From Caenibius tardaugens NBRC 16725 (lineage in GTDB: Bacteria; Pseudomonadota; Alphaproteobacteria; Sphingomonadales; Sphingomonadaceae), in NCBI RefSeq assembly GCF_003860345.1, contig NZ_CP034179.1:1364001-1428000 (forward strand): a stretch of DNA of 64,000 nucleotides, read 5' to 3'. The notes beneath the pieces are model-generated. The model did no database searches. It saw only the letters and a list, made by a program, of their open reading frames with translations, and was not told the origin of the DNA. The stretch's first letter is position 1; each line of letters opens with the position of its first letter. A program made the position numbers and the translations under genes. This document shows positions 18,367 to 47,346 of this stretch, piece by piece.

Positions 18367-18419
18367 AGCCAGCATAGCAGGAAAGCGGTACATCCCTGTC
18401 CGCTGATCGCTGCACAGGT

Positions 18420-18450
18420 CACGGGGGCCGGACACGAACCGGCCCCCGTG
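18420..18450 (+). terminator. GC-rich hairpin after the amidohydrolase gene
   Basis: Perfect 12-bp arms CACGGGGGCCGG and CCGGCCCCCGTG with a 7-nt loop ACACGAA, 54 bp after the stop. There is no U tract, so it may be a Rho-assisted or processing-protective hairpin. Confidence 0.6.
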
Positions 18451-18587
18451 AACCTCAACAGACCCCCAAACATGGCACGCTTGCCTGACCGAACATTGGT
18501 CATAACTGACTGACACATCTGGGAAACAAAAATACATTCCGTATGTTACAGCGGGCGACTTGAGAGGCCCCGCTGTTCGAGGTGAGC

Positions 18588-36305: not shown

Positions 36306-36327
36306 GCGCAGGCGCCATTGCCTGCGC
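36306..36327 (+). terminator. hairpin after the aldolase gene
   Basis: 8-bp arms GCGCAGGC and GCCTGCGC with a 6-nt loop, about 70 bp past the aldolase stop and just before the operator at 36341. It is terminator-like without a U tract. Confidence 0.4.
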
Positions 36328-36340
36328 ACGCCTGCCCGAT

Positions 36341-36360
36341 TATAGTGAATGAGATTCATC
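36341..36360. promoter_or_regulatory. operator resembling the 43.1-kb palindrome
   Basis: TATAGTGAATGAGATTCATC. It has the core TGAA-TGAGA-TTCA, and its layout TA-x-TGAATGA-xx-TTCAT matches one strand of the palindrome centred at 43107 with identical spacing. It lies about 50 bp before the acyl-CoA dehydrogenase start, so the TetR protein at 43163 probably also controls that gene. Confidence 0.55.
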
Positions 36361-36406
36361 TAATAATCGCACGATAAACGGGCATGACAAGGAGAGGATG
36401 CGTCCG

Positions 36407-37576
36407 ATGAACGCCTTTGGCCTGACGGAAGAGCAGCAAAGCATTCTCGACACTGCAGACGGGTTCGCGCGGGATGAGTTCGCGCCCCTGCAACAGCGTA
36501 TGGACGACGAGGAATGGTGGCCCGACAGTGCCATGCCCGCGCTGGCGCGGATGGGCTTTCTCGGGGTAACAGCCGATCCTGCCTACGGCGGGGCTGGCAG
36601 CGATCTGATGACTTGCGGCCTGATCACACAGGGCCTTGCGCGGTGGAACCATGCGCTCGCGCTCAGCTACGTCGCGCATGAGAACCTGTGCCTTAACAAT
36701 ATCGCCCGCAACGCCTCGGCTGATCTGTGCCAGCGCTATCTGCCCGGCCTGTGCGATGGTTCCCTGATCGGTGCGCTGGGGCTGACCGAACCGGGCGCAG
36801 GCTCCGATGCGCTGGGATCGATGGCCACCACCGCGCGGCGCGAAGGCGATCATTACATCCTCAACGGGACAAAGCTGTACATCACCAACGGGCCGGTCGC
36901 CGATGTCGTCCTGCTCTATGCCAAAACCGACAAGGCGGCAGGCAGCCGCGGCATTTCCGCCTTTGTCGTCGAAACCGATGCGCCCGGTTTTCAGGTCGCG
37001 CAGAAGCTCGACAAGATGGGTTTTCGCGGCTCCACCACCGCCGAACTGGTGCTGGATAACTGCGTGGTTCCCGCTGAAAATCTGGTGGGGGAAGAAAACC
37101 GGGGCGTCGGCATCGTGATGAGCGGGCTGGACCTTGAACGGGCCATTGTCGCCATGATCAATCTGGGCATGGCGGAGCGCGCGTTCGATCTGGCGCTCGA
37201 CTATGCGAAAACGCGCAAACAGTTCAACCGCGCCATCGGGGAATTCCAGTTGGTGCAAGGCAAGCTGGCCGAAATGTACACTGCGGTCGAAACGATGCGG
37301 ACCTTCTGCTATCGCACGCTGGCTGCGGCCAATGCGATCAGCGAAGCCGATGGCGGGCGCGGCGAAATTCACAAGCTCACCGCCGCTGCGATCCTCTATG
37401 CCGCTGAACAGTGCACCCGGGTGGTATCCGATGCGGTGCAGATCCATGGCGGCACCGGATATATGCGCGAAACCGAAATCAACCGGCTCTATCGCGCCTC
37501 CAAACTGCTCGAAATCGGGGCCGGAACCACAGAGGTGCGCAAGGTAATCATCGCCGGGGAACTGCTGCGTTCCTGA
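36407..37576 (+). CDS. acyl-CoA dehydrogenase (isovaleryl/citronellyl-CoA dehydrogenase-like)
   Basis: 389 aa. FAD-dependent alpha,beta-dehydrogenation of an acyl-CoA. Family signatures are GALGLTEPGAGSD, KLYITNGPVADV, DKMGFRGSTTAEL and the C-terminal IHGGTGYMRETEI, which holds the catalytic Glu at the SCAD-type position. The start at 36407 gives the better ribosome-site spacing; ATG at 36398 is an alternative. The operator at 36341 ties it to the carboxylase/BKACE genes downstream. Its likely partners are the crotonase and biotin carboxylase of region 3. Confidence 0.88.
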   Translation: MNAFGLTEEQQSILDTADGFARDEFAPLQQRMDDEEWWPDSAMPALARMGFLGVTADPAYGGAGSDLMTCGLITQGLARWNHALALSYVAHENLCLNNIARNASADLCQRYLPGLCDGSLIGALGLTEPGAGSDALGSMATTARREGDHYILNGTKLYITNGPVADVVLLYAKTDKAAGSRGISAFVVETDAPGFQVAQKLDKMGFRGSTTAELVLDNCVVPAENLVGEENRGVGIVMSGLDLERAIVAMINLGMAERAFDLALDYAKTRKQFNRAIGEFQLVQGKLAEMYTAVETMRTFCYRTLAAANAISEADGGRGEIHKLTAAAILYAAEQCTRVVSDAVQIHGGTGYMRETEINRLYRASKLLEIGAGTTEVRKVIIAGELLRS

Positions 37577-37669: not shown

Positions 37670-38437
37670 CTATTCGCCGCGCCACACCGGATCGCGTTTT
37701 TCGGCGAAGGCTTTCGGCCCTTCCTGCGCATCACGGCTGCGATAGGCGCGTTCCCAGGCATGACGGGCCGCACGCAAGGCCGCCGTCTTGCCCATTTCCG
37801 TCGCCAGATGCACCGTTTCCTTGCCTGCCAGCACCGAAAGCGGGGCATTCCCCGCAATCCTGCGCGCCAGTGCCAGTGATTCCTCCAGCAGGTTTTCAGG
37901 CGCTGCGACGCGGTTCACCAGCCCCACTTCATAGGCGCGCTGTGCGGTTATCGGATCGCCGGTCAGCACGATTTCCATAAAGATGCGCTGCGGGAGCATA
38001 TGGATCAGGGGTGCAGCCCAGGGCGAACCGCGCCCCACCTTGACCTCCGTAATCGCGAACCGCGCGGTTTGCGACGCCACACACAGATCGCATGCCTGCG
38101 CAATCAGCCAACCGCCCGCATAGGCCACCCCGTTGACGGCGGCGATCGTCGGCTTGGTCACCGCCACTGTATCGCCCGGAACCGGGAACATGTTCGGCGG
38201 TGGCACCTCCAGCCCAAGCTGCGCCATTTCCTTGAGATCGCCGCCCGCGCAAAACGCCTTGTCCCCCGCCGCCGTCAGAATGGCGACACGCAGATCGGGA
38301 TTATTCTCGAACCGTTCCCACGCAGCGAACAACCCTTCGCGCACGTCGCGGCTCAACGCGTTACGGCTGTCCGGCCGATTGATGGTGAGCACGGCAATAC
38401 CCGGTTCGGGCACGGTAAAAAGGACGGCATCAGACAT
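37670..38437 (-). CDS. crotonase-family enzyme (enoyl-CoA hydratase/isomerase)
   Basis: 255 aa. Oxyanion-hole segments are FCAGGDLKEM and AYAGGWLIAQACD. Of the two crotonase catalytic Glu residues, the second is present (E131 in ITEVKVG), but the position of the first (rat E144) is Leu111. This is the pattern of enoyl-CoA isomerases and other non-hydratase crotonases. It is the last gene of the five-gene operon starting at 43060 and overlaps the CoA-transferase stop by one base. Confidence 0.85.
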   Translation of the reverse strand: MSDAVLFTVPEPGIAVLTINRPDSRNALSRDVREGLFAAWERFENNPDLRVAILTAAGDKAFCAGGDLKEMAQLGLEVPPPNMFPVPGDTVAVTKPTIAAVNGVAYAGGWLIAQACDLCVASQTARFAITEVKVGRGSPWAAPLIHMLPQRIFMEIVLTGDPITAQRAYEVGLVNRVAAPENLLEESLALARRIAGNAPLSVLAGKETVHLATEMGKTAALRAARHAWERAYRSRDAQEGPKAFAEKRDPVWRGE

Positions 38438-39705
38438 CAGTAACCCCTTGTCAGAAGCCCGGCGGCTTCTTCTTCCAGATTGGCGCGCACATCGGGGTGC
38501 GCGATGGCAATCAAGGCGCGCGCACGGGCGCGCAGATCGCGGCCTTTCAATTCGGCAGCACCATATTCGGTGACCACCACATCGACTTCGCTACGGGCCG
38601 TCGTCACCGGCCCCGCCAGCCTTGAAACAATCCGCGACAGCCCCTTGGCCATGGATGGCAAGGCAATGATCGAACGCCCATCGGGCGACCGCGAAGCGCC
38701 GCGAACATAATCAACCTGCCCGCCCGTTCCGCCAAGATAGGCAGAGCCGGCGGATTCCGCGTTGACCTGCCCGGTCAGATCGACCTCGATCGCTGAATTG
38801 ATCGAAACCAGCCGATTGAGGCCCGACAGCACGGCTTCATCATGCGTGGTGGCCGAACCGCACAGCAGCAGCGCCGGATTCTCATGCGCAAACCGGTAAA
38901 GCCGTTCGGTGCCCAGCAGGGCCCCTGCCACGCTGACGCCCCGCCACCGGCCATGCGTGGCATTGGTTACCACACCGTTTTCGATCAGGTCCACGGCGCT
39001 GTCGCCAATCATCCCGCTGTGAATGCCCAGATCCTTGCGATCCCCGATCAGTTGCATGATCGCATCGGGCACCGCGCCGATGCCCACCTGCAGGATTGCC
39101 CCATCCTCCACAAAGTTGGCCACGAACCCGGCAATGGCCTTGTCCGTTGCGCTGGCCTGAATGGTCGGGAGCACGACCGGGGTACGATCGACTTCGACCG
39201 CCACGTCGATTTCCGTCGCGGGAATGGTGCGTTCCCCGAAGACACGCGGAACCCGGTGGTTCACTTCGGCAATGACCACGCGGGCACAATCAACCAGCGC
39301 GCCAATATGATCGCCGATCAGGCCCATACTGTGATTGCCATCCGCATCGGCCGGGCTGACCTGAATCAGCGCCACATCGCAGGCGATTTCGCCGCGCTTC
39401 ACCATATTGCCGATCTGGCCGACATGGCAGGGCACGATACCCAGCACGCCCTTTGCCGCCAGCGCGCGCAGGCTGCCGAGCGCACCCATGCTGGACACGC
39501 GGATCGCATCGGTATGTTCCGGCTTCAGCACGCCTGAAAAGCTCGATGCGGTGAACAACGAAACGCCGCCCAGATCGTGGCGCTGCGCAATCAGCGCTTC
39601 CAGCAAAGCCACGGGTTCGCCGCACGCCTGCCCGGAAACCACAGCATCGCCCGGCCGCACATAGGCCCGCAGATCCAGCGTTTCGGGGGTCACCCATTCA
39701 GTCAT
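38437..39705 (-). CDS. acetyl-CoA hydrolase/4-hydroxybutyrate CoA-transferase-family protein
   Basis: 422 aa. The two-domain class I CoA-transferase fold shows GxGxxP-like SGQACGEP near residue 25, VGIGAVPDAI (207-216) and the C-terminal VVTEYGAAELKGRDLRAR. The catalytic Glu expected in H-[ST]-E-M is replaced by Gly231 (HSGMIGD), so transfer through the usual glutamyl-CoA intermediate looks impossible. The start at 39705 overlaps the SDR end by 8 bp. It would move CoA between acids, or hydrolyse it, in the pathway fed by the operon. Confidence 0.84.
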   Translation of the reverse strand: MTEWVTPETLDLRAYVRPGDAVVSGQACGEPVALLEALIAQRHDLGGVSLFTASSFSGVLKPEHTDAIRVSSMGALGSLRALAAKGVLGIVPCHVGQIGNMVKRGEIACDVALIQVSPADADGNHSMGLIGDHIGALVDCARVVIAEVNHRVPRVFGERTIPATEIDVAVEVDRTPVVLPTIQASATDKAIAGFVANFVEDGAILQVGIGAVPDAIMQLIGDRKDLGIHSGMIGDSAVDLIENGVVTNATHGRWRGVSVAGALLGTERLYRFAHENPALLLCGSATTHDEAVLSGLNRLVSINSAIEVDLTGQVNAESAGSAYLGGTGGQVDYVRGASRSPDGRSIIALPSMAKGLSRIVSRLAGPVTTARSEVDVVVTEYGAAELKGRDLRARARALIAIAHPDVRANLEEEAAGLLTRGY

Positions 39706-40558
39706 CGATACTGTCCACCTTGAAGTAATCCGGTTTGTCGATCGTCCACTGATCCCCCCAGATCTGGTTCCCGCCATCCACGTGGACGACTTCGCCGGTC
39801 ATGAATTGGGACGCATTGCCCCCCACGAAACACACCGTATCGGCGATTTCCTCGATCTGGCCAAAACGCTGCATGACATTGGTGCGGGTCATCGCCCGCA
39901 CCGCGCGCGGATCGTAGACATTCATGCCCGTGGTCGAAATCAGGCCCGGGGCCACGCAATTGATCCGTATCCCCAGGGGCGCCCATTCGATTGCCACCGT
40001 CTTCGACAAGGCGATCACCCCGGCGCGGGCGGCGGCCGTGTGGGCAACGCCGGGCATGCCCCGGCCGGTCACCGCCACGACATTGACAATCGACCCGCCC
40101 CGCCCCGCATCCCGCCAGCGCCGCGCGGCTTCCTGCATCATGTGCCATGTCCCGCCAAGATTGGTGTCGATCACCGCATGCCACCCTTTGGGCGGAATAT
40201 CGATGGCCGCCGATGGGAACTGCCCCCCGGCATTGTTGATCACGATATCGGCACAACCGAAACGCGCTGCCACCGCGCTGAACAAGTCCTGCACTGCCTC
40301 GGGATCGCGGATGGTGAGCGGGTGGACCAGCACTTGCGCGTTATAGCGGCCAATCGCAGCGGCCGTGTCTTCCAGACGGTCCACCTTTCGCCCGCACAGC
40401 ACCACGTTCGCCCCCAGCCGCGCGGCCCAATGCGCCAGTCCCCGGCCCAGCCCCGAACCCGCGCCGGTGATCAATACCGTCTGCCCGGCAAAATATCCTT
40501 CGCGCAGCGCCGGAGTCAGTGCGGCCAGCGCATCGTCATCCCTTCCGTACCCGGTCAT
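39698..40558 (-). CDS. PECR-like SDR oxidoreductase
   Basis: 286 aa, paralogous to the SDR at 11790. The Rossmann motif is TGAGSGLG, then NNAGGQFP, and AHTAAARAGV stands where classical SDRs have YxxxK, followed by IALSKTVAIEW. It is closest in pattern to trans-2-enoyl-CoA reductase (PECR) and AtuG/citronellol-dehydrogenase-like SDRs. It likely reduces an enoyl-CoA or oxidises a branched alcohol. It overlaps the synthetase stop by 4 bp. Confidence 0.85.
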   Translation of the reverse strand: MTGYGRDDDALAALTPALREGYFAGQTVLITGAGSGLGRGLAHWAARLGANVVLCGRKVDRLEDTAAAIGRYNAQVLVHPLTIRDPEAVQDLFSAVAARFGCADIVINNAGGQFPSAAIDIPPKGWHAVIDTNLGGTWHMMQEAARRWRDAGRGGSIVNVVAVTGRGMPGVAHTAAARAGVIALSKTVAIEWAPLGIRINCVAPGLISTTGMNVYDPRAVRAMTRTNVMQRFGQIEEIADTVCFVGGNASQFMTGEVVHVDGGNQIWGDQWTIDKPDYFKVDSIDD

Positions 40559-42141
40559 ATGATCGCCCGTTCGCGGCCTTCCCAGTAAACGCGGCGCAGT
40601 TCGCGCTTCAGCACCTTGTTTGCCGGGCTGACCGGGAACTCCTCCTCCCAGAACACCACCGAGCGTGGCACCTTGTAGGCCGCGATAGCAAGGCGTGCAT
40701 GGGCGATGATGTCTTCTTCCGTTGCCATATGACCATCATGCAGCCGGATGATGGCATGGACCGCTTCGCCCCATTTGGCATCGGGGATGCCCACCACGGC
40801 CACCTGCCGCACGGCGGGGTGCGAGGCGACCGCGTTTTCCACTTCGGTCGAAAAAACATTCTCCCCACCGGAAATGATCACGTCCTTGATCCGGTCGACG
40901 ATATAGACCAGCCCCTGTTCGTCCATGAACCCGGCATCGCCCGTATGCATCCACCCGCCGCGCAGGGCCTCGGCCGTTTCTTCGGGCCGGTGCCAGTAAC
41001 CCAGCATCATGGTTTCGCCGCGCACCACCACTTCGCCCACTTCGCCGCGCGGCAGTTCCTTGTCCTGCGGATCGACGATCCGGATCTGTACAGCGGCAAG
41101 GGCACGCCCGGCGGCACGATTGCGCCCTTTCATCCGGTGTTCCCCTTCAAGATAGGCATGGGGCAACATCGTGCAGACCGGCGAAAGCTCCGTCATGCCA
41201 TAACACTGCGTGAACCGCGCATGGGGCAAGGCTGCGATTGCCCGGTCGAGCAGGGCATCGGTGATCGGCGCCGCGCCATAAAGCACGGAAACCAGCGACG
41301 ACATATCAAAGCGCGTGAAATCGGGATGTTCGATCATCATCTGGATCGCCGTGGGCACAAGCAGGCTTTCCGTCACCCCATGCGCCGCGATCAGACGCAG
41401 CGCCTCGCCCGGTTCGAACTGCGGCATCAGAACCGCCGTTCCCCCACTGCCGATGATCGACAGGCACGGCCAGGTGCCCGCCGCATGGAACATCGGCCCG
41501 TTGACCAGATAGATGCAGTCGCTGCGCAAAATGCCTTCCGCCCAGCAGCACATGGCCTCTGACAAGACATTGCGGTGCGACAGCATCGCCGCTTTCGACG
41601 TGCCGGTGGTGCCGCCGGTATAGCCCAGCTGATAGACATCATCCCCGCCGCGCCCCGCATCCTCCCCCGCAGAATGCGCGTCGACCATATCCCCGTAGAA
41701 CGGCAATCCGGAAAGCCCGGGGGTGAGCGCAACCACTTTCATATCCGGGTGCGCCTGCGCCAGCGCCGCGCCTGTGGCCGCCATGCGTTCATCGAACAGC
41801 AGAACAGCCGGTTCGCAATCGGCCACGGCGTGGAGCAGTTCGTTCACGGTCCAGCGCCAGTTGAGCGGCACCATGATCCCGCCTGCCCGGGGGACGGCCG
41901 CGAGCAGTTCAAAAAATTCCATGCTGGTCAGCGCAAGAATGGCCACCCTGTCGCCATGGCCGACGCCCAGCGCGCGCAAGGCTTCCGCCCCGCGCGCCAC
42001 CCGGTCGGCATAGGCCGCCCAGGTCTGCTGCCTGTCGCCATCAATCACGGCCAGTGATGCCCCATGCACCTGCACTGTGCGCGCCAGCATCGCGCTCACC
42101 CCGATGGCGGGGCGGGGCGACAGGCCCTCAGAAGCCGACAT
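40555..42141 (-). CDS. AMP-forming acyl-CoA synthetase
   Basis: 528 aa. The P-loop is YTGGTTGTSKAAM, the adenylate motif is QCYGMTE, the hinge is VDRIKDVIISGGENVFS and the C-terminal Lys is in SPANKVLKREL. It activates a carboxylic acid to its CoA ester at the head of the pathway. The ATG at 42141 overlaps the BKACE gene end by 14 bp. The longer frame to 42306 lies inside the BKACE gene. It is a counterpart of AtuH/LiuH-type ligases if the pathway is terpenoid-like. Confidence 0.88.
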   Translation of the reverse strand: MSASEGLSPRPAIGVSAMLARTVQVHGASLAVIDGDRQQTWAAYADRVARGAEALRALGVGHGDRVAILALTSMEFFELLAAVPRAGGIMVPLNWRWTVNELLHAVADCEPAVLLFDERMAATGAALAQAHPDMKVVALTPGLSGLPFYGDMVDAHSAGEDAGRGGDDVYQLGYTGGTTGTSKAAMLSHRNVLSEAMCCWAEGILRSDCIYLVNGPMFHAAGTWPCLSIIGSGGTAVLMPQFEPGEALRLIAAHGVTESLLVPTAIQMMIEHPDFTRFDMSSLVSVLYGAAPITDALLDRAIAALPHARFTQCYGMTELSPVCTMLPHAYLEGEHRMKGRNRAAGRALAAVQIRIVDPQDKELPRGEVGEVVVRGETMMLGYWHRPEETAEALRGGWMHTGDAGFMDEQGLVYIVDRIKDVIISGGENVFSTEVENAVASHPAVRQVAVVGIPDAKWGEAVHAIIRLHDGHMATEEDIIAHARLAIAAYKVPRSVVFWEEEFPVSPANKVLKRELRRVYWEGRERAII

Positions 42142-43060
42142 GATCGCCCCCTTTGAGCGACAGAATTTCGCGGGCATCATCAGGCGTGGCGATTTCCAGC
42201 CCCAGCCCTTCCAGGATTTGCCGCACCCGGGTGACTTGCGCCGCATTGCTTTGCGCCAATTGCCCCTTCCCGAGCCAGAGCGAATCCTCCAGCCCGACAC
42301 GGACATGGCCGCCCATCGACGCGGCCATCGCCGCCACTTTCATCTGCGCCTGCCCGGCGGCCAGCACCGACCAGCGATAGTTGTCACCGAACAGCCGATC
42401 GGCCGTCCGCTTCATATGCATCACATCGTCGGGATGGCTGCCGATCCCGCCCAGCAGACCGAAACAGGTCTGGATGAACAGCGGCGCCCGCACCAAACCT
42501 TCGCTCCAGAAATAGTGCAGGTTGTAAAGGTGGCTGGTGTCGTAGCATTCGAATTCATAGCGCGCGCCAGTCTGGTTCAGCGTGTCCAGCGCATAACGGA
42601 TGTCCTTGAAGCTGTTGCGGAACACCAGATCATGGCTGCCTTCCAGCATCGGGCGTTCCCAGTCATGCTGGAATGCCTTGTAGCGGTTGAGCATGGGGAA
42701 CAGCCCGAAATTCATCGACCCCATATTCAGGCTGGCAATTTCAGGACGCCAGACTTCGGCGGGGCGCACCCGTTCTTCCACCGCCATATAGGGGGAACCG
42801 CCCGTGGTCAGATTCACGACCACGTCCGAACGCTGCTTGATCACGCGCAGGAACGGTTCGAACGCTTCCGGGCTCTGGTCAGGCCTGCCATCGGCGGGAT
42901 TGCGCGCATGAAGATGGACAATCGCGGCGCCCGCTTCTGCCGCACCCAGTGCGCTTTCGGCGATTTCCTGCGGCGTAACGGGCAAATGGGGCGACATCGA
43001 CGGCGTGTGAATCGAGCCCGTGATCGCGCAGCTGATGATGACCTTTGGGGCTGACGGCAC
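42128..43060 (-). CDS. BKACE (beta-keto acid cleavage enzyme)
   Basis: 310 aa from a GTG at 43060 preceded by a strong GGAGAGGAGG; upstream ATGs lie inside the promoter palindrome. The zinc motif is H49-L-H51-A-R53 (VHLHARNPADGRP), followed by the NLTTGGS loop and the late Glu in RVGLED, all as in canonical BKACE. It exchanges acetyl-CoA with a beta-keto acid to give acetoacetate and a new acyl-CoA. It is the first gene of the operon running to 37670. In this setting it may replace HMG-CoA lyase or a thiolase for the final cleavage. Confidence 0.9.
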   Translation of the reverse strand: MPSAPKVIISCAITGSIHTPSMSPHLPVTPQEIAESALGAAEAGAAIVHLHARNPADGRPDQSPEAFEPFLRVIKQRSDVVVNLTTGGSPYMAVEERVRPAEVWRPEIASLNMGSMNFGLFPMLNRYKAFQHDWERPMLEGSHDLVFRNSFKDIRYALDTLNQTGARYEFECYDTSHLYNLHYFWSEGLVRAPLFIQTCFGLLGGIGSHPDDVMHMKRTADRLFGDNYRWSVLAAGQAQMKVAAMAASMGGHVRVGLEDSLWLGKGQLAQSNAAQVTRVRQILEGLGLEIATPDDAREILSLKGGDHVGF

Positions 43061-43085
43061 GTTCCCGCACCTCCTCTCCGTTCTC

Positions 43086-43128
43086 TCGTTGACACTATAA
43101 TGAACGTCATTCATTATAGTGTCAACGA
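43086..43128. promoter_or_regulatory. perfect 19-bp-arm palindrome forming two overlapping divergent promoters
   Basis: Arm TCGTTGACACTATAATGAA (43086-43104) is repeated in reverse complement at 43110-43128 around the spacer CGTCA. Each arm starts with a consensus -35 TTGACA. Reading across the centre, 17 bp later, gives a -10-like CATTAT (43112-43117 on plus, 43097-43102 on minus). One repressor dimer at the centre would shut both the BKACE operon (minus) and the TetR-carboxylase operon (plus). Confidence 0.8.
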
Positions 43129-43162
43129 CCATCGGGGTCGAACGAAGGGCCCGAACCGCACG

Positions 43163-43762
43163 ATGCCAAGGGTATCCGCAGAACGATTACAGGACCGGCG
43201 CAACTCGATTATCGCGGCAGCGCGCGATGTCTTTGCCACGAAAGGTTTCAACGGCACCGCCATCGCCGATATCGCCAAGATTGCCGGCACCAGCGATGGG
43301 CTCATTTACCGCTACTTCAATGGCAAGCGCGAACTGCTCGAAGCGGTTCTCGATGACTTCTACGGCAGCATTCTCGAAGAAGTGGCGCAAGCCATCGCCG
43401 CCGCACCCGATTTCCGCACACGGTTGCAACGGCTGATCGAACATCATGTCGCCGTCTTCGCGCGGGACACCGGGCTGTGCCGCCTGTTCATTACCGAGGT
43501 GCGGAATCTCGAAGGCTATGTTGGTTCGGATTCGCAGGCGCTCAACCGCCGCTACACCGCATTGCTTGCCCCCGTGCTGGAGACCGGCATTGCCGAAGGC
43601 GCGCTGCCTGCGAACATCGACCGGCGCTTTGTCCGCGACATGCTGTTCGGCGGGATCGAACATATCGCCTGGCGGCACATCAGCACCGAAACCCCGCTCG
43701 ATGTCCCCGACATTTCGCGCAAGGTCACGGCCCTGCTGCTTGGCGGGATGGCTGCGGGATGA
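43163..43762 (+). CDS. TetR-family transcriptional regulator
   Basis: 199 aa. The HTH is at about residues 34-54 (AIADIAKIAGTSDGLIYRYFN), typical of acyl-CoA-responsive TetR repressors, with a helical effector domain. The ATG at 43163 lies 35 bp after the palindrome; the frame from 43100 would start inside it. Its stop overlaps the biotin carboxylase start (ATGA), so regulator and carboxylase are co-translated and autoregulated. The site at 36341 is a second likely target. Confidence 0.88.
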   Translation: MPRVSAERLQDRRNSIIAAARDVFATKGFNGTAIADIAKIAGTSDGLIYRYFNGKRELLEAVLDDFYGSILEEVAQAIAAAPDFRTRLQRLIEHHVAVFARDTGLCRLFITEVRNLEGYVGSDSQALNRRYTALLAPVLETGIAEGALPANIDRRFVRDMLFGGIEHIAWRHISTETPLDVPDISRKVTALLLGGMAAG

Positions 43763-45234
43763 CGGCGCCGTTCCGTTCCGTACTGATCGCCAACCGCGGC
43801 GAAATCGCGGCGCGTATCCTGCGCACGGTGCAGGCCATGGGCATGCGCGGGATCGTGGTGTTCCATGCGATTGACCGCAACACCCCGGCTGTGCTGCTGG
43901 CAGACGCGGCGGTGGAGATCGACGGCCCCACTCCGGTCGCCGCCTATCTCGATGGGCCGCAGATCATCGCCAGGGCAAAGGCCGCGGGGGCGGAGGCAAT
44001 CCACCCTGGTTACGGATTCCTGTCGGAAAACGCCGGGTTCGCGCGTGCGGTGGCGGCGGCGGGCATGGCGTTCGTCGGTCCCACGCCCGAAGCCATCGAA
44101 TTGATGGGCGACAAGGCGCGCGCGCGCGATTTCGTGGCGGAACGCGGCTTTCCGGTCGCCCCCTCCGCCATCGAGGATGACGATCCGGCCACTTTCGTTG
44201 CCCGCGCCCGCGCGGTCGGCGCGCCGCTGCTGATCAAGCCATCAGCGGGCGGCGGCGGCAAGGGCATGCGGATCGTGCGCGATCTTGCCTTGCTGGAGGA
44301 CGAGATCGCCCGTGCCCGCAGCGAAGGGGAACGCTATTTCGGTGACGGACGGCTCTATGCCGAACGCTATGTCGAACAGCCGCGCCATATCGAAGTGCAG
44401 GTGCTGGGCGATGCGCAGGGCAATGTCGTCCACCTGTTCGAACGCGAATGTTCGATCCAGCGGCGTTTCCAGAAAGTGATAGAGGAAAGCCCGTCGCCCG
44501 CCCTCACCCCCGAAGAACGGGACGCGATCTGCGAAATCGCGGCCGGCATCGCCCGCTCTGTCGCCTATCGCAACGCAGGCACGGTGGAATTCATCTATGG
44601 TCAGGGTGCTGTCTATTTCCTCGAAATGAATACCCGGCTGCAAGTCGAACATCCGGTGACGGAAGCAGTCACCGGGCGCGATCTGGTGGCGGACCAGTTG
44701 CGGATCGCCGCCGGGCAGCCGCTGGGTTTCGCGCAGGATGATCTGGCAATCACCGGCCACGCCATCGAACTGCGGCTCTATGCCGAAGACCCCGCGCGCG
44801 ATTTCGCCCCCACCACAGGCCCGGTGCTGGCGTTCCGCCCCGCGCCCGGCGTGCGGACCGATGCCGGGATCGTCGCAGGTGGCCAAATAAGCGCCGCGTT
44901 CGATCCAATGCTGGCCAAGATCGTGGTGCATGGCGCCGATCGCGCCGACACCATCGCCCGGGCCGATGCCGCACTGGCGCAAACGGTGCTGCTGGGCTGT
45001 GTCACGAACAATGCCTTCCTGCGCCGGTTGCTGGCCGATCCCGATTTTCGCGCGGGCCAGTTCCACACCGGAACCATTGCCGAAAAGCCCGAACTGCTGC
45101 CCGATCCGCCGCTCACCGATGCAGCGCGGGCCCGCATCCTTGGTGCGTCGGCCCTGTCGCTGCGCGCGGTGCGCGATGCCGCCGATGCGGTGCCGCCGCT
45201 CCACGCGGCAATCGGAACATGGCGCAACCTGTGA
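43759..45234 (+). CDS. acyl-CoA carboxylase, biotin carboxylase subunit
   Basis: 491 aa. Domains: N-terminal pre-ATP-grasp (VLIANRGEIAARI), ATP-grasp with the glycine-rich loop SAGGGGKGM (about 160), catalytic RLQVEHPVTE near 290-300, and the C-terminal biotin-carboxylase domain. No biotinyl domain is attached; that is supplied by the next gene, unlike the fused MCC/GCC alpha subunits. The ATG at 43759 overlaps the TetR stop. It carboxylates biotin with ATP and bicarbonate. Confidence 0.92.
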   Translation: MTAPFRSVLIANRGEIAARILRTVQAMGMRGIVVFHAIDRNTPAVLLADAAVEIDGPTPVAAYLDGPQIIARAKAAGAEAIHPGYGFLSENAGFARAVAAAGMAFVGPTPEAIELMGDKARARDFVAERGFPVAPSAIEDDDPATFVARARAVGAPLLIKPSAGGGGKGMRIVRDLALLEDEIARARSEGERYFGDGRLYAERYVEQPRHIEVQVLGDAQGNVVHLFERECSIQRRFQKVIEESPSPALTPEERDAICEIAAGIARSVAYRNAGTVEFIYGQGAVYFLEMNTRLQVEHPVTEAVTGRDLVADQLRIAAGQPLGFAQDDLAITGHAIELRLYAEDPARDFAPTTGPVLAFRPAPGVRTDAGIVAGGQISAAFDPMLAKIVVHGADRADTIARADAALAQTVLLGCVTNNAFLRRLLADPDFRAGQFHTGTIAEKPELLPDPPLTDAARARILGASALSLRAVRDAADAVPPLHAAIGTWRNL

Positions 45235-45734
45235 AACACATTTTCACCATCGATGGCGAACGCGCCGATGCCTGGCTTTCGGGGCACAAGGGCAGCTATC
45301 GCCTGCTCTATGATGGCGGCGCTTGCGCCGTCGCGCTCACTCCGGCGGCAACGGGCGATGGTGCGGCCCTGCTCCATATCGAGGGGCAGAGCGTGTCGGT
45401 CGTCCTTGCCGTGGCGGGCGATCAGGTGTGGGTCCATATCGACGGCGCGGCGCACGCGGTGATCCTGCACGATCCGGTCCGCTTCCTCGGCGCGGGCGAC
45501 GACGCGGCCGCATCGGGCACCATCCGCGCACCCATGCCCGGCACGGTGATCGCCGTCGCCACCGAACCGGGCGCACAAGTGCAAGCGGGCGATACCCTGA
45601 TGGTGATCGAAAGCATGAAGCTGGAAACCGCAATCAAGGCCCCACGCGATGGCGTGGTGGCCACGGTCACTTTCGCCGCGGGGCAAAGCTTTGATCGCGA
45701 TGCCGTGCTGGTCACGCTGGAAGGGGAGGACTGA
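45219..45734 (+). CDS. biotin carboxyl carrier subunit
   Basis: 171 aa. The C-terminal biotinyl domain (about 101-170) has the biotin-lysine K134 in ESMKLE, a variant of the usual A/S-M-K-M, with the Pro-Met-Pro-Gly hairpin RAPMPGTV before it. The N-terminal half may be the BT-like linker that binds the carboxylase subunits. It overlaps the preceding gene by 16 bp and ends 4 bp before the carboxyltransferase start. Confidence 0.88.
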   Translation: MAQPVKHIFTIDGERADAWLSGHKGSYRLLYDGGACAVALTPAATGDGAALLHIEGQSVSVVLAVAGDQVWVHIDGAAHAVILHDPVRFLGAGDDAAASGTIRAPMPGTVIAVATEPGAQVQAGDTLMVIESMKLETAIKAPRDGVVATVTFAAGQSFDRDAVLVTLEGED

Positions 45735-45738
45735 CACC

Positions 45739-47346
45739 ATGTCCCGCATCGTCTCCCAACTTGATCCGCGCTCCGAAAGCTTCCTCGCCAATGCCGCGCA
45801 TAATCGCGCGCTGGCCGAAGAGCTGCACCGCAGGCAGGACACCGCACGGCACGACCGGCCCGAGCGTGACCGCGAACGGCTGGCCCGGCAAAACAAGCTG
45901 ATGCCGCGCGAACGGCTGAAGCTGCTGCTTGACCCCGGCACCCCGTTTCTCGAATTGTCCACGCTGGCCGCCAACATGGCCTATGGCGGCGATGCCCCGG
46001 GCGCCAGCCAGATCACCGGGATCGGTGTGGTGGCCGGGCGCGAGGTCGTGATCCATGCCGATGACGCCTCGGTCAAAGGCGGCGCATGGTACCCACTTTC
46101 GGTCAAGAAGATCGTCCGCGCACTCGACATCGCGATCGAAAACCACCTGTCGATGATCCACCTGTGCGATTCCGCCGGGGGATTTCTGCCGCTGCAACGC
46201 GAACTCTTCGCCGACAGGTATTACGCCGGGCGGATATTCCGCAATCAGGCGATCCTTTCGAAAATGGGCCTGCCCCAGCTTTCCATCGTGCTGGGCCATT
46301 GCACCGCAGGCGGCGCCTATATCCCGGCGCTGAGCGATTACAGCGTGATCGTGCGCGGCACGGGCGCCATCTTCCTCGGCGGGCCGCCACTGGTGAAAGC
46401 GGCCACGGGCGAAGTGGTCACGGTGGAGGAACTGGGCGGCGCGGATATGCATACCAGCGTTTCGGGCACGGCCGATTACCCCGCCGCGAACGAACCCCAT
46501 GCCTTCGCCATCGCGCGCGAGATCGTCGGCACCTGGACGCGCGGGGAAAAGGCGCGGGTGGACATGCGCGAACCCGAAGCCCCGGCCTACGATCCGCAGG
46601 ACATCTACGGCATTCTACCGCGCGACAGCCGCACCGTGTTCGACATGCGCGAACTGATCGCGCGCATGGTGGATGGCAGCCGTTTCCACGAATACCAGCC
46701 CGCCTATGGCCCCACACTGGTCTGCGGTTTCGCCCATATCTGGGGCTATCCGGTGGGCATTCTCGCCAACAATGGCGTGCTGTTCAACGACAGTTCGCTG
46801 AAAGCGGCGCATTTCATCCAGCTGTGTGACAAGAACCGCACCCCACTGCTGTTTCTCCAGAATATCACCGGCTTCATGGTCGGGCGCGAATACGAACGGC
46901 GCGGCATTTCCAAGGACGGCGCGAAGCTGATCATGGCGGTTTCGGGGGCTTCGGTTCCCAAGTTCACGATCAATTGCAACGGGGCGTTCGGCGCCGGGGT
47001 CTATGGCATGTCGGGCCGGGCGTTCGACCCGCGCTTCCTGTTTTCGTGGCCGGGTGGATCGACGTCGGTCATGGGCGCGGAACAGGCCGCCAACGTGCTG
47101 AGCGATATCAAGATCCGCCAGCTCGAACGCGAAGGCCGCACGCTGTCGGCAGAAGAGATCGCGGCGATCCGCGACCCCGTGCTGGAAGATTACCGCCGCG
47201 AACAGAGCGCCTATTACGCCACATCGGAACTGTGGGATGACGGGATTCTCGATCCGGTCGATACCCGCAACGCGCTGGGCATCTGTCTGTCGGCCGCCCT
47301 GCACGCCCCGATCGACGATCCGCATTACGGGGTCTTCCGGCTCTGA
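45739..47346 (+). CDS. acyl-CoA carboxylase, carboxyltransferase (beta) subunit
   Basis: 535 aa, the size of methylcrotonoyl-/geranoyl-CoA carboxylase beta subunits. Crotonase-fold N and C halves are readable: RERLKLLLDPGTPFLEL, GHCTAGGAYIPALSDYSVIV, LFLQNITGFMVG and NGAFGAGVYGMSGRAFDPRF. It transfers the carboxyl group from biotin to the gamma or alpha carbon of an acyl-CoA. Together with the dehydrogenase, crotonase and ligase it outlines a methyl-branched acyl-CoA route. The precise substrate cannot be read from sequence. Confidence 0.92.
   Translation: MSRIVSQLDPRSESFLANAAHNRALAEELHRRQDTARHDRPERDRERLARQNKLMPRERLKLLLDPGTPFLELSTLAANMAYGGDAPGASQITGIGVVAGREVVIHADDASVKGGAWYPLSVKKIVRALDIAIENHLSMIHLCDSAGGFLPLQRELFADRYYAGRIFRNQAILSKMGLPQLSIVLGHCTAGGAYIPALSDYSVIVRGTGAIFLGGPPLVKAATGEVVTVEELGGADMHTSVSGTADYPAANEPHAFAIAREIVGTWTRGEKARVDMREPEAPAYDPQDIYGILPRDSRTVFDMRELIARMVDGSRFHEYQPAYGPTLVCGFAHIWGYPVGILANNGVLFNDSSLKAAHFIQLCDKNRTPLLFLQNITGFMVGREYERRGISKDGAKLIMAVSGASVPKFTINCNGAFGAGVYGMSGRAFDPRFLFSWPGGSTSVMGAEQAANVLSDIKIRQLEREGRTLSAEEIAAIRDPVLEDYRREQSAYYATSELWDDGILDPVDTRNALGICLSAALHAPIDDPHYGVFRL

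Follow-up and report, generated by a model that had tools for sequence, protein, structure and literature searches.

A perfect palindrome with a putative TetR operator and two overlapping predicted promoters between divergent BKACE and TetR-carboxylase operons

INTRODUCTION

In the bioA/bioBFCD region of Escherichia coli, an operator palindrome overlaps two face-to-face promoters; that palindrome is imperfect, and its repressor, BirA, is unrelated to TetR. The E. coli acrR/acrAB region, as described in the cited part of PMC12825309, has a TetR-family autorepressor gene divergent from its target, with the repressor site in the promoter region and overlapping promoters that engage RNA polymerase in either direction. 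The tetR/tetA system also pairs a TetR gene with a divergent target, and palindromic 15-bp operators repress both promoters (PMC3511530, part cited), while in Synechococcus smtA/smtB divergent overlapping promoters lie in a short operator region with the repressor gene on one side (PMC4353254, part cited). In a published test, 5/5 divergent TetR-family regulators located <200 bp from their neighbour repressed that neighbour (PMC3511530, same part).

Here we describe a palindrome between two divergent operons in a 64-kb stretch of DNA, referred to as the window. The design is already known in kind from acrR/acrAB, tetR/tetA, and smtB/smtA; what is unusual is the exact symmetry and a hint of arm copying. 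The two directions of acrR/acrAB share part of one -10 hexamer, whereas 9 bp separate the hexamers predicted here (43097-43102 and 43112-43117), within a perfect palindrome centred on the putative operator. A bidirectional promoter as Warman and colleagues define it, with opposite starts beside or within a shared -10 (PMC12825309, part cited), is therefore a different arrangement, as the -10 hexamers predicted here do not overlap. The tetR/tetA region has two operators and serves an efflux pump, compared with one candidate core and catabolic CoA genes in our locus, and the repressor of smtA/smtB is of the metal-responsive SmtB type (PMC3511530 and PMC4353254, parts cited).

MATERIALS AND METHODS

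The whole 64-kb window was scanned for perfect inverted repeats (arm length 10 or more, loop length 12 or less). In each relative search the genome of the window is included in the count where it was searched. Relatives of the TetR protein (E <= 1e-20) were found in 15/298 family genomes; the eight weakest matches (<=37% identity: G257, G178, G088, G119, G206, G118, G276, and G055) were checked for palindromes only and left out of the comparison, as were 7 distant relatives from a search of genome contigs with the TetR protein and the plasmid matches (25 records, all <60% identity). Close relatives of the carboxylase were present in 5/397 family genomes and 2/396 order genomes, and genus-level searches around genomes already found gave 2/14, 1/2, 1/5, 1/81, and 1/1. 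The half-site pattern TTGACN6ATGAAYNNCRTTCA matched in 6/397 family genomes, own included, with 0 for the reversed control; its matches fell at carboxylase, BKACE, CoA-ligase, ACD (acyl-CoA dehydrogenase), or tetR relatives, and a further one, in G139, adjoins a different acyl-CoA dehydrogenase gene.

The comparison covered eight carboxylase loci (the window, G133, G288, G623, G011, G071, G107, and G615). Because the half-site pattern was what first revealed the G107 locus, a single TTGAC was guaranteed there. The site comparison leaves out a pair of exact cores in G107 (L050:13037 and 13084) as well as six cores with one mismatch, found singly in the fetched stretches of G133, G615, G623, G071, G139, and G107. 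On plasmids of Sphingopyxis, Novosphingobium, and Sphingobium, BKACE relatives stood in other gene contexts and had no exact core in the 3 stretches taken from 152 matching records. A literature search combining TetR, BKACE, and sphingo- returned nothing on the subject, and a search on divergent TetR promoters that overlap returned no paper.

RESULTS

Positions 43086-43128 form a perfect inverted repeat, TCGTTGACACTATAATGAA-CGTCA-TTCATTATAGTGTCAACGA, whose 19-bp arms (43086-43104 and 43110-43128) are 100% complementary around the 5-nt centre CGTCA, exactly as the sequence-only reading had described it. It is the longest of 5 perfect inverted repeats in the window, the runner-up having an arm of 13, and about 1e-5 perfect repeats with arms of at least 19 would be expected in the window at its base composition. 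The second longest repeat, at 18419-18451, is GC-rich, with 13-bp arms and a 7-nt loop. The palindrome sits in the 102 bp that separate the divergent start codons of the BKACE gene and tetR.

Perfect self-complementarity would also suit a structural element, that is, a hairpin, a terminator, or the end of a mobile element, in place of a promoter-operator. We consider this highly improbable, given that the palindrome is AT-rich (35% GC), is flanked by divergent start codons, and is conserved along with the gene cluster. We rejected a terminator or transcribed hairpin because the region has no terminator-like site and because transcription, from starts predicted towards the outer end of each arm, would yield leaders lacking the complete hairpin. 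A dispersed repeat and a mobile-element end were discarded as well, because a scan of the whole genome placed the palindrome at a single position within 3 mismatches.

The genes on either side were identified by Pfam, which bore out the earlier description of a BKACE operon facing a TetR-carboxylase operon:

43163..43762, plus strand: TetR-family repressor gene with TetR_N and TetR_C_4 (Pfam, PDB sequence search, NCBIfam; ATG at 43163)
43759..45234, plus strand: biotin carboxylase subunit (Pfam)
45219..45734, plus strand: biotin carrier protein (Pfam Biotin_lipoyl; BT_MCC_alpha match below cut-off)
45739..47346, plus strand: carboxyltransferase subunit, predicted start (Pfam)
42128..43060, minus strand: BKACE (beta-keto acid cleavage enzyme), predicted GTG start (Pfam, NCBIfam)
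40555..42141, minus strand: acyl-CoA ligase (AMP-binding), predicted ATG start (Pfam, run on 40558-42159)
39698..40558, minus strand: short-chain dehydrogenase (SDR; Pfam)
38437..39705, minus strand: CoA-transferase (AcetylCoA_hydro/AcetylCoA_hyd_C), predicted ATG start (Pfam, run on 38440-39717)
37670..38437, minus strand: enoyl-CoA hydratase (Pfam)
36398..37576, plus strand: acyl-CoA dehydrogenase gene (ACD), putative third unit of the regulon (Pfam)

The BKACE start was taken as the GTG at 43060-43058, with GGAGAGGAGG ahead of it. The NCBIfam model for 3,5-dioxohexanoate:acetyl-CoA acetone transferase gives BKACE 545 bits, above its cut-off of 430, a hint that the pathway may act on a particular beta-diketo acid. 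The biotin carrier has a reading frame of its own, overlapping the end of the biotin carboxylase gene, which makes this a split carboxylase; the carrier's below-cut-off match is to the BT domain of the methylcrotonyl-CoA carboxylase alpha subunit.

Each arm of the palindrome begins a predicted sigma70-type promoter that ends in the opposite arm:

43089..43117, plus strand: predicted promoter of the tetR-carboxylase operon, TTGACA-17-CATTAT (TTGACA 43089-43094, CATTAT 43112-43117; predicted start near 43124)
43097..43125, minus strand: predicted promoter of the BKACE operon, TTGACA-17-CATTAT (TTGACA 43125-43120, CATTAT 43102-43097; predicted start near 43090)

The 17-bp spacing between the TTGACA of one arm and the CATTAT of the other, which had been claimed from the letters, holds on both strands. 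Each promoter matches the consensus at 10/12 positions, and the -10 positions predict leaders of about 30 and 39 nt. Between 42700 and 43500 there are 3 promoter-like matches, compared with 0.2 expected in shuffles; all 3 overlap the palindrome, and no such match lies wholly outside it within that interval. The CATTAT hexamers match TATAAT at only 4/6 positions. In Novosphingobium aromaticivorans, >80% of mapped sigma70 promoters have no T at -7 (PMC8407463, part cited), so a 4/6 match is not disqualifying in such bacteria, and CATTAT does retain that T. Taken alone, the looser pattern TTGACN18CANNNT is no rarity: the window has 2 versus 1.15 expected, and 27/100 shuffles reach 2. Symmetry, position, and conservation therefore carry the promoter reading, and not the consensus match alone.

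The BKACE-side promoter is the main doubt. The third promoter-like match, TCGACC-17-TATAAT on the minus strand (43141-43113), scores 10/12, equal to the proposed one. The palindrome could thus hold the operator and a single promoter of the proposed form, on the tetR side, with the BKACE operon transcribed from another minus-strand promoter such as this one, starting inside the operator near 43106. The -10 of the alternative is kept at 4-6/6 positions in seven relatives, but it overlaps the conserved arm and may have been retained for some other reason. The -35 of the alternative agrees with TTGACA at 0-1/6 positions in all seven, unlike the TTGACA facing the BKACE-side operon, which is kept at 7/8 divergent loci. 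A single promoter of the proposed form is, in our judgement, a poor bet next to two face-to-face promoters.

The gene at 43163 encodes a TetR-type DNA-binding domain (TetR_N, 61 bits versus a cut-off of 24) and a YsiA-like C-terminal domain (TetR_C_4, 46.5 bits versus a gathering score of 21), and SDGL[ILV]YRYF in the DNA-binding domain is common to 9/9 TetR proteins aligned. The protein distantly resembles Bacillus FadR, in that its four best PDB sequence matches include 3whb, named a fatty acid metabolism regulator; 1vi0 and 5gpa, also among the best matches, we take to be FadR. Its best NCBIfam match is Bacillus FadR (NF053878) at 105.1 bits, short of the curated cut-off of 200. Bacillus FadR shares a TGAATG-type half-site with the site here but has a wider half-site spacing, and AtuR, an acyclic terpene repressor, has 13-bp inverted repeats. 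A literature search for the Bacillus FadR consensus returned no match. The divergent neighbour lies <200 bp away, with the 102-bp gap between start codons, and the conserved palindrome, with its putative operator role, overlaps the predicted promoters, as expected for a divergent autorepressor.

Two candidate operator sites lie in the cluster:

43100..43114: putative TetR operator core, RTGAAYNNNRTTCAY (ATGAACGTCATTCAT), at the palindrome centre (exact core at 3 genome places; same or one-mismatch core beside orthologous genes in relatives)
36345..36359: second candidate operator core, GTGAATGAGATTCAT, overlapping the end of the predicted -10 of TTGCCT-17-TATAGT (36318-36346)

Exact RTGAAYNNNRTTCAY occurs at 3 places in the 4.36-Mb genome, with 0 for the reversed control. 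Two of them are in the cluster, at the palindrome and upstream of the acyl-CoA dehydrogenase gene, compared with 0.03 expected in shuffles of the window. The centre of the palindrome is very probably the operator of the TetR protein, judging from this clustering and from the relatives. The core at 36345, which the sequence-only reading of the palindrome did not include, probably brings the acyl-CoA dehydrogenase gene under the same repressor; an exact core also precedes the ACD orthologue in G133 (L035:7705). The third genomic core (L054, G000:C1:2296999) lies between peroxiredoxin and LysR-type genes (Pfam), has no TTGAC, and is probably due to chance or to another regulator. G107 carries two exact cores 47 bp apart (the pair at L050:13037 and 13084), possibly marking a further member of the regulon or a related regulator.

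At all eight carboxylase loci, a BKACE, CoA-ligase, or ACD gene points away from the carboxylase side, and the core lies between the two (one mismatch in G615). A TTGAC firing right, towards tetR or the carboxylase, stands at the exact distance from the core in 7/8 divergent loci. The left-firing TTGAC, towards the second operon, does so in 7/8 divergent loci versus 0/5 other core sites (Fisher p 0.005, only a guide because G288 and G623 have the same site and all loci are related). The exception is G615, which has divergent pathway genes and the one-mismatch core, with one TTGAC a base nearer and the other absent. The five other core sites are at tetR in G139 and G071 (one-mismatch cores), at the acyl-CoA dehydrogenase gene in G139, and at ACD in the window and in G133. 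A single TTGAC, pointing at the target, is present at three of these sites, of which L051 was found with a pattern that requires TTGAC; both ACD sites have none. A phosphoglucomutase gene (Pfam) is divergent from the G139 and G071 tetR sites, where 162 and 169 bp separate the TTGAC from the likely start of that gene, and we took it to be outside their service because of this distance and its unrelated function; at the remaining three sites the adjoining genes all run in the same direction.

These counts also bear on whether the whole 37-43 bp palindrome is an extended operator for two TetR dimers, with TTGAC/GTCAA as repressor half-sites instead of -35 elements and the real promoters perhaps partly elsewhere. 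TetR proteins bind as one dimer or two, FadRSa doing both according to the operator (PMC6449355, part cited), and the symmetry does extend past the 15-bp core. The core upstream of the ACD gene, however, has no TTGAC at that distance in the window or in G133, the second TTGAC is absent from every site outside the divergent pathway loci, and the 42700-43500 interval offers no promoter-like match clear of the palindrome. As judged from its distribution, TTGAC fits -35 elements better than repressor half-sites, and we regard the extended operator as unlikely.

The left -10 is CATTTT or CATCTT (3/6) in the six relatives other than G133; since CATTTT also occurs at 3/5 of the other core sites, it is not independent evidence for the left promoter. 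In G133, which belongs to the same genus, a tetR relative (46% identity, L035:7994-8590) lies beyond the acyl-CoA dehydrogenase gene and not between the biotin carboxylase (BC) and BKACE genes, and the palindrome still stands between those two. Neither the G107 nor the G133 tetR gene has a core directly upstream, which counts against universal autoregulation.

Among the eight loci, only the window (19 bp) and G133 (21 bp) have perfect arms, with different centres. The six other divergent loci have unequal arms, so perfect symmetry is not required. At all of these but G615, the carboxylase-side arm resembles that of the window (CATTATAGTGTCAAC, with CATTATGG-, CACTGTAG-, and CACTATAC- variants), while the other arm opens with TTGACG or TTGACT before diverging. 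Consensus TTGACA would accordingly belong to the opposite promoter in these five, leaving the tetR/carboxylase promoter with the weaker -35. As for the -10, the tetR/carboxylase side has the better one in G288, G623, and G011 (4 versus 3 of 6) and the worse one in G071, and the two sides are equal in G107. In G133, the symmetry continues four bases beyond the G adjoining the -35 box, where a promoter role is unexpected.

DISCUSSION

The palindrome is a real, conserved element of unusually neat symmetry and very probably a promoter-operator: its geometry, the identities of the flanking genes, the rarity and clustering of its core, and the conservation of that core are direct observations. We think it likely that it acts as a shared control element, with a central operator for the TetR protein and two complete, overlapping, divergent sigma70-type promoters in the arms. 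One arm promoter would serve the operon of tetR, biotin carboxylase, carrier, and carboxyltransferase, and the other the operon of BKACE, CoA ligase, SDR, CoA transferase, and hydratase. Repressor at the central site, as one dimer or two, would mask the two -10 elements together with the spacers and would silence both operons, its own gene included, until released by an acyl-CoA intermediate of the pathway. The second core would place the acyl-CoA dehydrogenase gene under the same control. In this model the start sites, binding by the TetR protein, the inducer, and simultaneous control of the operons are predictions; that the inducer is an acyl-CoA is probable by analogy with FadR-type repressors (PMC6449355, part cited).

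The sequence-only reading had seen two divergent promoters and an operator in one palindrome, and the core and the second -35 box in relatives now speak for a shared operator within overlapping predicted promoters. Its further description of an economical symmetric switch stands in part. A shared operator is supported; "switch" overstates what the sequence says, "shared gate" is safer, and perfect symmetry is unneeded, as the unequal arms of 6/8 loci attest. The shared 37 bp presumably has no room for two polymerases. In E. coli, according to the cited part of PMC12825309, none of the five bidirectional promoters tested had enough basal activity for polymerases to compete, although strong activation of one direction could repress the other; competition may thus not matter here, which is a further reason to find "symmetric switch" overstated.

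How the arms became identical is a separate matter, and two routes would fit: selection favouring stronger promoters, or one arm having been copied over the other. Tentatively, and with the odds in our view against it, we suggest that the exact symmetry arose by copying, through template switching at an imperfect palindrome, and not by base-by-base selection. Such an event would have turned an unequal pair into two identical promoters in this genus and locked the operons in matched output. The idea rests on two genomes; if shown, arm copying and matched output would raise the interest of the element.

The locus provides a regulon open to testing, that of a TetR repressor with a distant likeness to FadR, together with its beta-keto acid/carboxylase pathway. 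Its relatives form a natural series from unequal to perfectly symmetric arms, in which to ask what output ratio two operons reach when they share divergent promoters, and how that ratio is set; the origin of perfect palindromes may be approached with the same series. Because both directions start equal, the perfectly symmetric version would lend itself to a simple dual-reporter model of competing polymerases.
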